A DNA stretch of 23,531 nt, from positions 1-23,531 of the IMG/VR virus record IMGVR_UViG_3300040807_000319; one strand, 5' to 3'. The position numbers and the translations under genes are program-made. The notes under the pieces are model-generated. The model saw only the letters and a list, made by a program, of their open reading frames with translations, did no database searches and was not told the DNA's origin. The stretch comes from a virus. Below are positions 8,645-18,474 of the stretch, piece by piece; position 1 is the stretch's first letter, and each line of letters starts with the position of its first letter.

Positions 8645-8679
8645 GTCCATTTCCTTTCTGATGCATCATTGCTAGCAAA

Positions 8680-8709
8680 CTTAAATCAGAATTGCTAGCA
8701 AAAAATTAA
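8680..8709 (-). promoter_or_regulatory. Candidate leftward promoter
   Basis: On the minus strand TTAATT (8709-8704) and TTTAAG (8685-8680) are separated by 18 bases and enclose operator 2. The hexamers are weak (3 and 4 of 6). The call leans on the mirror symmetry with the rightward promoter and on the need for a start point upstream of the gene at 8644. Confidence 0.4.
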
Positions 8710-8712
8710 CTA

Positions 8713-8741
8713 TTGCAATAAAAAGTTGCTAGCACTATTAC
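8713..8741 (+). promoter_or_regulatory. Rightward sigma70-type promoter
   Basis: TTGCAA (8713-8718) and TATTAC (8736-8741) are separated by exactly 17 bases; each matches the consensus at 4 of 6. The spacer contains operator 3, ending just before the -10 box, and the expected start point (about 8748) touches operator 4. It would drive the regulator and the DNA-metabolism operon. Confidence 0.72.
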
Positions 8742-8771
8742 TAGGTAGAAGCTAGCAACACTGGGGTAACC

Positions 8772-8942
8772 ATGAAAGAGCAAAAAGAACAGTGGAACCA
8801 TCGGATCAAAGTCGAACTGGCTGATGGTATGCGTGAAGTCCAACGCAAGAGAAACGAAGAAAGCACAATGCGTGAGCTGACAGAAGAAGCCATTGCGCTG
8901 TTCTGTAAGGTCAACGGCGTGAAAGTTAAGGAAGCCGCATGA
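8772..8942 (+). CDS. 56-residue probable ribbon-helix-helix repressor
   Basis: A short product in the size range of Arc/CopG-type regulators. A basic N-terminus leads to a possible strand (HRIKVELADG, residues about 10-19). Helix 1 follows (MREVQRKRNEES, 20-31), then a turn and helix 2 (MRELTEEAIALFCKVNG, 33-49), and a short basic tail. In this family the N-terminal strands of a dimer insert in the major groove at short palindromes, which fits the four TTGCTAGCAA sites immediately upstream. TGGGGT lies about five bases before the ATG. Its stop overlaps the resolvase start (ATGA). I infer autoregulation and control of the leftward operon. The fold assignment is from pattern only. Confidence 0.7.
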   Translation: MKEQKEQWNHRIKVELADGMREVQRKRNEESTMRELTEEAIALFCKVNGVKVKEAA

Positions 8943-12869: not shown

Positions 12870-15077
12870 ATGAAACAGGAAATGGAAAACAAAATGGAAA
12901 TGGCTCCCAAGTCCGACATCATTAAGCAGTTTATAGCACAGATCACAAAGAATTGGAATGAGGTTGGGCAACCTTTATTAGAGATACGATCAATCTCAGC
13001 AAGTGGATCAACAAACGCCGCAAGATTTAGATTAAATCAAATAGACGAAGCCGTTGAGCATGCCGAGGCCATGAACAAAGCCAAGGCAAACATCTACATG
13101 TGCATCAATGCCATTGATCCAATCCTAGCCGAAAACATTCCAGCAGGCAAAGCCGCCAAAGACACAGACATCATGGCAGCCTTCTACTGCTTTGCAGACG
13201 CAGACACAAAAGGCGCAATGGAAAACATTATGTCATTTGCTGGCCCGAAATTCACAATGTCAGTCAAGACAGGAACGACGCCATTCGCCAGAGGCCATGC
13301 ATATTGGGAACTGGAAGAGCCTTGCCAGAACATGCAAGCATGGAAAGAAATACAGAAATCCATCGCCGCCAGCCTGCAAACAGACGCGGCAGTCATAAAT
13401 CCAAGCAGGATCATGCGCGTGGCAGGCACAGTCTCATGGCCGAACAAAAAGAAGCAGGACAAAGGCTACGTCCCTGAACTCGTCACAATGCGTACAGAAT
13501 TTAGTACGGATCGAGACCCGCAGCCAATCGAGCGGCTCATGCGGGCATTTCCGAAGGCAAATGACGTATTAAATTCAACAGGTCATTCAGGACTAGAAAT
13601 AGACCTCGGCCAGCAAGCAATGGATCGGCAGCTCACAGCGCAGAGCATCCTGGCAGGCGACGATTGGCACAACAACATCATCAGACTTGTCGCCTCATAC
13701 GTCAGCAAAGGGCTGGCAGACGAGGAAATACACGCCATAACAGACAGCTTCACAATGTCAGGCTATTCAGTAGACGACACAAGGCAAGAAGTGCAGCAGG
13801 CAATCGACGGCGCAAGAGAAAAAGGATGGACGCCACCACCTGATCCAGCCGTTGAGCGGATGCAAAAGCAAAACGAAGCTCTAAACATAGCCTCAGAGCC
13901 GTCACAAAGCCCCACAGACGCAGAAGACGAGCAAAACTGGCCAACACCCTACGAAATGTTTGATGCGCTCACGCTGCCGCGTAGGGAGTGGATATATGGA
14001 TACGACTACATCAAGAAGTACATCAGCGTCACAGCCTCGGCAGGTGGTATTGGTAAAACAAGTGCAATCATTGTGGAAGCTCTGGCGATTGCGACAGGTA
14101 AGCCGCTCCTCGGCACGGCAGTCAAGCAGCAGGAAAACGTCTGGATCATCAACCTTGAAGACCCAATCAGTGAAATGCAGATGCGTACAATCGCAGCTAT
14201 GCAGCATTACGGACTAACGCCAGACGACATTAAAGGACGACTGTTCATGGACGGCGAGGACACCATGCAGCTCACGCTGGCGGCAGAAGGCAGGGACGGA
14301 CTGATTACAAATGACGACATGCTCGCGCATATCACACGCAAGGTAAAACAAAACAACATTGGTGCAGTCATTCTCGATCCGTTTGTCTCAGCACACCTTG
14401 TCAACGAAAACAACAATGGATCAATCCAAGCAGTCGTAGCAATGCTCAGAAAACTCGCAAGAGACACAAACAGCTCAGTCCAGCTCGTGCATCACATCAG
14501 AAAGACAAACGGGGACGATGCAACGATTGACAGTGTCAGAGGTGCAGGATCACTCATCGGGGCAGCCCGAGCAGCCAGAGTAATCAACCGAATAACACCA
14601 GAGGACGCCATAGCGCTCGGTGTAGACGAACACGAAGCTCTCGGCATCTTTCGTGTAGACGACGGCAAAGCAAACCTGGCACCGCCATCGGACAAGGCAG
14701 TCTACAGACGAATGCAAAGCGTCGAAATAGCCAACGGAGAACACATCGGGGTTGCCACGGAGTTTAAGCTGCCAGACCTGTTCGACGGCGTGACAACAAA
14801 GAACCTCTACAATGTGCAGCGCACAATCGGCAAGGCAGAGGAAGCAGACAATGCATACCGAGCCAATGTGCAGGCAGACAACTGGGTTGGGAAAGCTGTC
14901 GCAGAGGAATTAAACCTTGATCTAGGCAAGCCGAACCAGAAGGCAAAGGCCAAGGCAATTATTAAGCAGTGGGTCAGCTCTGGCAGTCTTCAGGTTGTTA
15001 AGCTGCCGAACAAGAGAAAAGGTGGCGATACGCCTTGCGTGATCGTCGGTGAATGGGTGAACCATGACGAGCTGTAA
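12870..15077 (+). CDS. Primase-helicase (RepB-like primase plus RepA/AAA ATPase)
   Basis: A 735-residue replication protein. The N-terminal 230 residues resemble RepB-family primases: an acidic motif FADADTKGA near residue 107, then KTGTTPFARGHAYWEL and NPSRIMRVAGTVSWPNKKK. A helical linker leads to a RecA-like hexameric helicase domain with Walker A GGIGKTS near residue 395, LEDP near 430 and Walker B AVILDPF near 500. A LVHHIRK motif and an arginine-finger-like GAARAARV follow. The C-terminus has a winged-helix-like piece. The ATG at 12870 follows AGGGAGGG; an extension to 12828 would run through the hairpin. It should unwind and prime at the adjacent GTGTGG-repeat origin. No DNA polymerase is in view. 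Confidence 0.88.
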   Translation: MKQEMENKMEMAPKSDIIKQFIAQITKNWNEVGQPLLEIRSISASGSTNAARFRLNQIDEAVEHAEAMNKAKANIYMCINAIDPILAENIPAGKAAKDTDIMAAFYCFADADTKGAMENIMSFAGPKFTMSVKTGTTPFARGHAYWELEEPCQNMQAWKEIQKSIAASLQTDAAVINPSRIMRVAGTVSWPNKKKQDKGYVPELVTMRTEFSTDRDPQPIERLMRAFPKANDVLNSTGHSGLEIDLGQQAMDRQLTAQSILAGDDWHNNIIRLVASYVSKGLADEEIHAITDSFTMSGYSVDDTRQEVQQAIDGAREKGWTPPPDPAVERMQKQNEALNIASEPSQSPTDAEDEQNWPTPYEMFDALTLPRREWIYGYDYIKKYISVTASAGGIGKTSAIIVEALAIATGKPLLGTAVKQQENVWIINLEDPISEMQMRTIAAMQHYGLTPDDIKGRLFMDGEDTMQLTLAAEGRDGLITNDDMLAHITRKVKQNNIGAVILDPFVSAHLVNENNNGSIQAVVAMLRKLARDTNSSVQLVHHIRKTNGDDATIDSVRGAGSLIGAARAARVINRITPEDAIALGVDEHEALGIFRVDDGKANLAPPSDKAVYRRMQSVEIANGEHIGVATEFKLPDLFDGVTTKNLYNVQRTIGKAEEADNAYRANVQADNWVGKAVAEELNLDLGKPNQKAKAKAIIKQWVSSGSLQVVKLPNKRKGGDTPCVIVGEWVNHDEL

Positions 15078-15079
15078 AC

Positions 15080-15089
15080 TTGCTAGCCA
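15080..15089. promoter_or_regulatory. Isolated TTGCTAGC operator copy before the repeat region
   Basis: TTGCTAGCCA matches the divergent-region operator at 9 of 10 bases and lies three bases after the primase-helicase stop, abutting the GTGTGG repeats. No promoter hexamers surround it, so it may serve replication control rather than transcription. Confidence 0.5.
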
Positions 15090-15250
15090 CACTTCCACAC
15101 CTTGTTTTTACGAAGTGTGGATGAAGTGTGGAGGTGTGGAAGAAAAGCCACTAAATACCCTTCCACACCACCTGCATATATATATGCAAGGTGTGGTGGG
15201 GTGGTGGTTTGGGTAAAGTGGGGTGTGGTGGCAAGGTGTGGAAGGTGTGG
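15087..15250. repeat. GTGTGG iteron cluster, candidate replication origin
   Basis: Ten copies of GTGTGG or its complement occur in 164 bases. Seven are in plus orientation (15115, 15126, 15134, 15191, 15223, 15236, 15245) and three in minus (15087, 15095, 15163). In the middle is a perfect 16-bp AT-rich palindrome TGCATATATATATGCA (15173-15188), flanked by CCACACC and GGTGTGG in inverted orientation, which would melt or extrude easily. The region carries no convincing gene and lies directly after the primase-helicase, so I infer an origin with iterons. Regulatory or packaging roles are alternatives. Confidence 0.7.
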
Positions 15251-16150: not shown

Positions 16151-16598
16151 CGCGTTAGAACACACAGCGACGGCAAGGCGCGGAGGCGCGTGCGCGTAAC
16201 TGAACGCTCGTTCATATTCAAGCGTCAACTACTACATATTGTGCCATTGCAGTATTCGCATAGCTCAAACTGCTGGGTCTGTGCGCAAAGACCTTATTTA
16301 TATATCGCATGCCAATATTGGAATTTAACATAATCGACATTATCGGAGTGACCTATGCATTCTCTGCAACTCAGGCCGAATGCACCCCCCCCAACGCGGC
16401 GAAAGAGGGGGCATGTGTGTGTAGAAAAACGCAGACACCTGTGCTACAAATACGCCAAGACTGCCACGCTTCCTCAAATGCGCGACGCCTCGTCTCTCCC
16501 TTACGCTGTGTCAGCGCCGTGGCAGTCTACCCCCCCCATACCCCTATTGCCAGAACTGCTAGCATCGTCTAAAATTTTAAAAAATTGGAGGATCAGCT
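16151..16598. other. Non-coding region upstream of the terminase
   Basis: About 450 bases without a convincing gene. Visible signals are GC-rich alternating sequence at 16178-16197, an inverted repeat TGAACG-CT-CGTTCA (16201-16214), and two runs of eight C (16385-16392 and 16530-16537). There is also an 11-bp inverted repeat AGACTGCCACG/CGTGGCAGTCT (16458-16468 and 16518-16528), and a promoter with operator at its right end. Small-terminase recognition sites (pac or cos) often lie in or just before the small-terminase gene, so this is the natural place to look for one; no site is identified here. Two open frames inside it look non-biological. Confidence 0.6.
16547..16575 (+). promoter_or_regulatory. 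Late-type promoter for terminase with TGCTAGCA operator in spacer
   Basis: TTGCCA (16547-16552, 5 of 6) and TAAAAT (16570-16575, 5 of 6) are separated by exactly 17 bases. This is the best sigma70-type promoter seen in the window. The spacer contains TGCTAGCA (16557-16564), the same core as the operators at 8669-8758, again between the two hexamers. It would drive the terminase and following genes and place them under the same regulator. Confidence 0.82.
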
Positions 16599-17081
16599 TT
16601 GGCGGGAAAGCAGTTAAGGAAAAAGATACTTGCAGACATTGAGGCGAAGGGCGGTGCTGAGTACGTCATGGAAAAGGCGTCGTCCATGACGCTGAAGGCC
16701 TGGGCTGCCGAGGAGTGGGAGTGCAGTCGTAATTATTTAAGCGAGACTGTTCGGGGTGTTCCTGAGTATGCTCGTGCGTTGGAAAAGGCGCAGCCTGTTT
16801 TAGCGGATGCTATGATGGAGGAAAATGTTGAGATTGCCGACAGTATTTCTAAAGATGCGACGAATGCACAGATTGCGAAGGTTCGTGAGCAGATGCAGGC
16901 GAGGAAAATGCTGGCGGCTGGGCTGAATAGGGATCGGTACGGTAGTGGGCCTCGTGCTGAGATTACGCTTAACCTTGGGGATTTGCACTTGGATGCGCTG
17001 CGGAAGATCAGCGCAGACCGCCAGGCATTGATGGCAGAGGATCGTGATCGGGAAATGAAGGTTATTGAGCATGACGACTGA
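16599..17081 (+). CDS. Terminase small subunit
   Basis: A 160-residue protein that recognises phage DNA for packaging. It has a basic N-terminus, an HTH-like segment (SMTLKAWAAEEWECSRNYLS, residues about 28-47), a central helical region (residues about 60-115) and a C-terminal tail of charged residues. It starts with TTG at 16599, strongly supported by GGAGG seven bases upstream (16587-16591). It overlaps the large-subunit gene by 11 bases. The assignment rests on size, domain pattern and neighbour. Confidence 0.85.
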   Translation: MAGKQLRKKILADIEAKGGAEYVMEKASSMTLKAWAAEEWECSRNYLSETVRGVPEYARALEKAQPVLADAMMEENVEIADSISKDATNAQIAKVREQMQARKMLAAGLNRDRYGSGPRAEITLNLGDLHLDALRKISADRQALMAEDRDREMKVIEHDD

Positions 17082-18474
17082 AGCCAATCCTTTTGAGGAT
17101 TTTACGTTACAGTATATGGATGACCCTGTTTTGTTCGTCAGGGAGGTTTTGGGTGCTGAGCCATTGCCGTATCAGGCAGAGTTTTTGGAGGCTATATCAA
17201 GCGGTGAGCGTCGTATTAGTATTCGTAGCGGCCACGGCACAGGAAAGTCCACATCGGCCTCGTGGGCGATGCTGTGGTATTTGCTGATGCGGTTTCCCAA
17301 TAAGGTTGTCGTGACAGCCCCGACATCTGGCCAGCTTTTCGATGCTTTGTTTGCGGAGCTAAAGCGGTGGATTGGTGAGCTGCCCAAGCCAGTACAGGAC
17401 TTGCTGACTGTTAAGAGTGATCGTGTTGAGCTGTCGGCTGCGCCGTCTGAGATGTTTATATCTGCGCGTACAAGCCGTGCAGAAACCCCAGAAGCCTTGG
17501 CGGGTGTACACAGCGATAATGTTTTGTTGGTCGTTGACGAGGCGTCTGGTGTGCCTGAGAAGGTGTTTGAGGCGGCGGCTGGTTCAATGTCAGGCCATAA
17601 CGCCACGACAATCTTGCTCAGCAACCCGACACGCTCGACTGGTACGTTTTATGAGAGCCAGACGCGGATGAGCGGGACTTGGTGGACGCGGCGGTGGAGC
17701 TGCGTTGACAGTCCATTGGTGTCGGATGAGTTTGTTGACGAGATGCGTGAGCGGTATGGCGAAGAGAGCAATGCGTTTCGTATTCGTGTGTTGGGTGAGT
17801 TTCCGTTAGCTGATGACGATACGATCATACCGTTTCACTTAGTTGATGCGGCGATGAATAGGGACATCGAGATTGACAAGGATCGTCGTCCTGTCTGGGC
17901 TGTCGATCCTGCAAGGTTTGGCAGTGATAGGACGGCATTTTGCAAGCGTGTTGGTTCGGTGATTACTGAAATTAAGTCGTGGCGCGGGTTGGACTTGATG
18001 CAGACAGTTGGCCGTGTGATGGCAGAATATGAGGCTTTGAACCCGAGCAGCAGACCGTCAGAGATATTGGTTGACAGCATTGGCGTCGGCTCTGGCGTTG
18101 TTGATCGTTTGAGGGAGCTGGGAGCGCCTGTGAGGGGCGTGAATGTAGCTGAAAGTCCGAGCATGGGCGAAACTTACAACAATTTGAGAACTGAGCTGTG
18201 GTTTAAGACAAAGGCTTGGCTTGAGGATCGGTCGTGCAAAATACCGCAAGACGATGAGCTTTTGGCTGATCTGACAGGCATACGGTATTCATTTACCTCA
18301 TCTGGCAAGATGGCGGCTGAGAGCAAGGATCAGATGAGGCGGCGTGGGCTGCGCTCTCCTGACTTGGCAGATGCTGTTTGCCTGACAATGGCATCAGACG
18401 CGGCGATGGCGCTGTCTGGGCCTATGACATCGTGGCGGGGCGAACTTAGAAGGAATTTGCGCGGTATTGCGTAG
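17071..18474 (+). CDS. Terminase large subunit
   Basis: A 467-residue packaging motor. The ATPase half has Walker A RSGHGTGKS near residue 55, Walker B LLVVDEAS near 155 and the coupling motif LLSNPTR near 180. The nuclease half has AVDPARFGSD (first metal Asp, about 277), EILVDSIGVGSG (about 330) and DLADAV (about 430), giving the RNase H-type active site. The ATG at 17071 is preferred over a TTG at 17065 because AAGG lies nine bases before the former and only three before the latter. A complete set of motifs indicates a functional enzyme. Confidence 0.95.
   Translation: MTTEANPFEDFTLQYMDDPVLFVREVLGAEPLPYQAEFLEAISSGERRISIRSGHGTGKSTSASWAMLWYLLMRFPNKVVVTAPTSGQLFDALFAELKRWIGELPKPVQDLLTVKSDRVELSAAPSEMFISARTSRAETPEALAGVHSDNVLLVVDEASGVPEKVFEAAAGSMSGHNATTILLSNPTRSTGTFYESQTRMSGTWWTRRWSCVDSPLVSDEFVDEMRERYGEESNAFRIRVLGEFPLADDDTIIPFHLVDAAMNRDIEIDKDRRPVWAVDPARFGSDRTAFCKRVGSVITEIKSWRGLDLMQTVGRVMAEYEALNPSSRPSEILVDSIGVGSGVVDRLRELGAPVRGVNVAESPSMGETYNNLRTELWFKTKAWLEDRSCKIPQDDELLADLTGIRYSFTSSGKMAAESKDQMRRRGLRSPDLADAVCLTMASDAAMALSGPMTSWRGELRRNLRGIA

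Follow-up and report, generated by a model that had tools for sequence, protein, structure and literature searches.

A putative Arc-like regulator with candidate operators in the early region and terminase promoter of an uncultured phage

The same short site, TGCTAGCA, lies between the hexamers of an early promoter and of the terminase promoter in an uncultured phage, which raises the question of whether one regulator acts on both. The stretch of DNA analysed here (the window) is the complete virus record IMGVR_UViG_3300040807_000319 of 23,531 bases and is probably a fragment of a genome, so the counting of TGCTAGCA was moved to longer relatives. The phage is tailed and probably infects marine alphaproteobacteria. 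The initial annotation had placed the core TGCTAGC at six positions only, four in the divergent region, one at the terminase promoter and one at a putative origin; counting confirmed these six (8670, 8693, 8727, 8751 on the minus strand, 15081 and 16557), and all of them are noncoding in a window whose noncoding fraction is 7.7% by our own gene calls. The 8-mer TGCTAGCA occurs four times (8670, 8693, 8727 and 16557), compared with 0.95 copies expected from shuffles of the window. No published account of this operator was found in a literature search.

The early cluster spans positions 8670–8757 and adjoins the gene of a 56-residue protein, REG (8772–8942, plus strand), which heads the early rightward operon. 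It consists of operators O1 (8670–8677), O2 (8693–8700, 23 bp from O1) and O3 (8727–8734), each with the sequence TGCTAGCA, and operator O4 (AGCTAGCA, 8750–8757, about 23 bp from O3), with a weak CTAG site, TTACTAGGTA, between O3 and O4 at about 8738–8747. The early rightward promoter (TTGCAA-17-TATTAC, 8713–8741, plus strand) had also been said to carry the core between its hexamers, and it does: O3 lies at positions 9–16 of the spacer, the third site occupies the 17-base spacer in nearly all relatives with the array and this architecture is conserved across clades. On the other side, the first site lies within the spacer of the leftward early promoter (positions 4–11) in most relatives; the leftward hexamers of the window itself are poor. 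The layout of four CTAG-centred sites approximately 23, 33 and 23 bp apart is kept together with REG proteins of 55–100% identity while the flanking sequence and neighbouring genes outside the array differ among those relatives, which amounts to strong phylogenetic footprinting evidence for a divergent control region under autoregulation. The early array is therefore confidently predicted to be the operator array of the adjoining REG. The sites, the promoter positions, their conservation and the co-occurrence of regulator and operator were all read directly from the sequences.

Relatives were found at 47 loci. Downstream of REG the early operon contains a primase/helicase gene (profile match) and genes that appear from their translations to be ruvC-like and exonuclease-like. 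REG is a putative ribbon-helix-helix autoregulator. Its QWNHRI segment (including Q7, N9 and R11), unchanged across 13 relatives, can be aligned to QFNLRW in Arc of P22, with weak statistical support (hhalign probability 2.4%); in Arc this segment forms the strand that contacts DNA. A search of REG against Pfam gave zero matches at E ≤ 1, the family of 13 members gave no match to Arc in NCBIfam, profile searches of PHROG and the PDB recognised no family and no match to REG was found among 50,697 phage records. The AlphaFold monomer (pTM 0.38) has two helices, a helical N-terminus and no strand, and zero matches were obtained with this model in Foldseek. It is thus by its layout that REG is considered a putative Arc-like protein, and membership of the Arc family remains unsupported by profile matches.

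REG resembles Arc of the Salmonella phage P22 in size (56 versus 53 residues), in the Q-x-N-x-R pattern found, by the weak alignment, at the place of the DNA-contacting strand, and in having candidate operators within the −35/−10 spacer of its own promoter. Arc represses its own operon, and in the P22 record its operator (14798–14818) lies inside the promoter that it represses (14793–14821). REG differs from Arc in lacking significant sequence homology to it and in its operators, which are TTGCTAGCAA palindromes in four-site arrays with a candidate extra site at the terminase promoter. Autoregulated small ribbon-helix-helix regulators such as Mnt, CopG and antitoxins of the ParD/MazE type are likewise encoded by the first gene of an operon and have repeated palindromes overlapping their own promoter, as seen for REG; unlike these, REG has no recognised toxin or partition partner and its neighbours are replication and recombination genes.

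In some relatives both the make-up of the protein and its operators have changed. In genome G008 (contig L241, 9581–10171) and in contig L274 (9354–9947) REG forms the C-terminal part of an RHH-T5orf172-REG fusion, the N-terminal segment of which is read here as a putative second ribbon-helix-helix (a model of the fusion predicted from its single sequence was unusable, with a pLDDT of 38). The operator region of these two consists mostly of TGTGCAA direct repeats, with one GCTAGC left on the leftward side. REG is connected to T5orf172 (GIY-YIG type) regulators through these fusions; in the window, REG lacks both the T5orf172 domain and the additional putative ribbon-helix-helix, and its early region is free of TGTGCAA repeats. 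G009 and L273 (REG 53%) also have four CTAG sites, but these are degenerate and arranged in pairs 12 bases apart. The type of operator thus shifts whenever the domain composition of REG does, an indication that REG is the protein that binds. That the palindrome is instead bound by a host factor or by another phage protein is very unlikely given this joint shift and given that CTAG-type operators adjoin REG in every relative read, including phages that differ in their structural and terminase genes, even though the binding of REG is itself a prediction and REG matches no curated DNA-binding family.

The terminase promoter (16547–16575, plus strand) consists of TTGCCA (16547–16552), the 17-bp spacer GAACTGCTAGCATCGTC and TAAAAT (16570–16575) and lies about 23 bases ahead of the gene for the terminase small subunit (Sf6 type, 16599–17081, plus strand), which overlaps that for the large subunit (17065–18474, plus strand). 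The operator core reported between its hexamers (5/6, 17 bp, 5/6) was found as TGCTAGCA at 16557–16564, positions 5–12 of the spacer, and is a candidate for a single weaker REG operator; it stands alone, without the 23-bp partner seen in the early array. The promoter had also been called the strongest in the window, which holds as a tie, since two more 5/6-17-5/6 matches are present on the minus strand; a further three matches have 16- or 18-bp spacers. An operator matrix was trained on the early operators of relatives only, with the lineage of the window excluded. Its top six positions in the window are exactly the six TGCTAGC sites and the same six were obtained in G001, while in G009, the array of which was in the training set, they are made up of the four early sites plus those of the origin region and the terminase promoter. 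The terminase site scores 12.6 and ranks sixth in the window, compared with 9.3 for the next position and up to 19.7 for the early sites. The chance of finding two sites of at least the quality of the terminase site in noncoding DNA outside the array is p ≈ 0.0015.

For comparison, 38 upstream regions of terminase relatives, the window included, were collected. Both TTGCCA and TAAAAT are conserved in 38/38; TGCTAGCA is present in 28 of the 38 and missing in ten (L182–L191). An exact scan for TGCTAGCATNNTCTAAAAT gave 34 contigs, 28 of which are terminase relatives; the remaining six had none of the genes of the window in the stretches examined, fit chance and were rejected as relatives. Between the window and L177 the fourfold sites are identical at only 41% in the small-subunit gene and 49% in that of the large subunit, whereas the promoter agrees at 30/32 bases and neither of its changes (upstream GAAC to CATC) falls within the operator, which indicates that the spacer is constrained in that clade. 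Conservation of the terminase site is that of one clade and so possibly reflects one event and, as the whole promoter block is conserved, the constraint may stem from something else. REG might then act on the early region only; RNA polymerase or some other factor would read the conserved promoter block to which the terminase TGCTAGCA belongs, and the resemblance of this TGCTAGCA to the operator would be a coincidence preserved by descent. This explanation is tentative and is considered the less likely one, but it accounts for the conservation of the entire block CTATTGCCARAACTGC...TAAAATTT, for the AACTGC half that stays in L182–L191 without the palindrome and for the uncoupling of the terminase site from the canonical early array; moreover, chance alone would give about one TGCTAGCA per window, and relatives have coding copies. 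It is at odds with the low chance expectation (∼0.06 copies) for the 1,700 noncoding bases that lie beyond the early array, which is lower still for a given spacer, with L177, where the operator and the downstream part are unchanged next to the altered upstream bases, and with the fact that the spacer sequence of typical sigma-70 promoters is not conserved. Judged from these sequence comparisons, it is moderately probable that REG also acts at the terminase promoter in the clade of the window through the single weaker candidate site.

Lying between the −35 and −10 hexamers, this site would be expected to act in repression, through polymerase exclusion. Binding of REG as an activator, giving a positive late switch, appears quite improbable: binding at such a position normally blocks polymerase (compare the P22 Arc operator), the terminase promoter already matches at 5/6 in both hexamers and the same geometry is found at the self-controlled early promoters. 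An activator would follow a design common in phages, in which a late promoter is driven by an early-made protein. Ribbon-helix-helix proteins can also work both ways, AmrZ being both an activator and a repressor (PMC3325190).

The annotation had further held that the same operator links early and late control. As a fixed feature this link was not borne out: G002 (REG 79%) and G022 (REG 75%) have REG, the full array and the terminase promoter, from which the operator is missing, and the L242, L245 and L274 phages, among them a clade that also keeps the array, have REG together with a different terminase, the promoter of which has no site. Conversely, G008, G009 and L273 keep the terminase site with early operators that are degenerate (G009 and L273) or replaced (G008), and among contigs showing both regions the terminase site and a canonical array were not associated. 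The terminase branch is lineage-specific, occurring in one clade that includes the window phage, and is not a fixed property of REG. The proposed phage-wide regulon is sound in that the six best sites of the window phage are all noncoding and lie in control regions, but is too strong because the terminase site is not fixed among relatives. Extension of the count to longer relatives revealed two copies of TGCTAGCA within the primase gene of the L242 clade, which tells in part against such a regulon. These copies are 65 bases apart (L242, 12824–12897) and are probably an effect of codon usage; L010 and L274 have near-copies at the corresponding position. Among the matches listed in a search of viral contigs, paired TGCTAGCA was not a specific pattern.

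Taken as a whole, the reading that an Arc-like REG represses the early region and, in the clade of the window, the terminase promoter is held with slightly better than even confidence. We infer the fold of REG, its binding to DNA and the direction and timing of its effect as follows. REG, a small Arc-like repressor, would bind TTGCTAGCAA palindromes; through the four early sites, two of which lie in promoter spacers, it would shut both early operons including its own gene, and at the fifth, single and weaker site in the terminase spacer it would exclude RNA polymerase. The packaging genes would be off while REG is plentiful and on when replication titrates REG or when its synthesis drops; for a self-limiting repressor that has several strong sites in the early region and a single weak late one, the terminase promoter would be freed as genome copies increase. 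If active, the terminase site would couple early repression to packaging without a dedicated late activator. The uncultured phage group thereby gains concrete regulator and operator candidates, and operators that were gained, lost or swapped while one putative DNA-contact motif stayed invariant offer a natural series for studying the rewiring of a small-repressor regulon.

The remaining TGCTAGC (15081–15087, plus strand) follows the primase gene beside strongly folding inverted repeats in an origin-like region. In G008 it is mutated; G002, G003, G005, G010 and G022, which have another repeat type, lack it. The inverted repeats (15083–15215) surround a TGCATATATATATGCA palindrome and fold with a z score of −7.3. 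In relatives the repeat unit changes on both arms together (CCACAC/GTGTGG to CCTCAC/GTGAGG); pairing is thus conserved and the region is likely to be an origin or a structured RNA.

A conserved dif-like site, TTTAACATAATCGACATTATCGGA (TTAACATAAT-N-ATTATCGG), is located at 16324–16347, some 200 bases ahead of the terminase promoter, and is also present at L177:5772, L187:8533, L242:15845 and L274:16045, in two terminase backgrounds. It has five mismatches from an E. coli-like dif core, which we take as the reference. The pattern TTAACATAATN4-8TTAT is found at the dif-like position across the phage group, including phages with another terminase. A looser 14-base dif pattern was found in 19 of 61 genomes from the bacterial family of a Rhodobacteraceae bin, mostly once, and in none with the reversed control. 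The tailless Rhodobacter phage Jorvik is reported to have a dif-like attP and to lack a predicted integrase (PMC10589892). The dif-like sites of the group suggest integrase-less tailed phages that insert at the host dif by XerCD. A genome scan with the terminase alignment found nothing and one with a single terminase protein found distant or binned relatives only, so that there is no confirmed prophage or host and, no integrated copy having been found, XerCD insertion is treated as a lead only. A reading in which REG alone serves as master repressor for a family of tailed phages that lack an integrase and insert at the host dif with XerCD, with one palindrome controlling the early region, the replication origin and packaging and with packaging freed by titration during genome replication, has a low probability.

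A hairpin guessed upstream of the terminase promoter was discarded, since in the window it does no better than shuffled sequence (z −0.7). The stretch that separates the terminase promoter from the dif-like site contains GTGTGTAGAAAAACGCAGACAC, a conserved element with runs of G and of C, both in the window (16380–16450) and in L182–L191; it is weakly foldable and is perhaps a packaging or terminator element.
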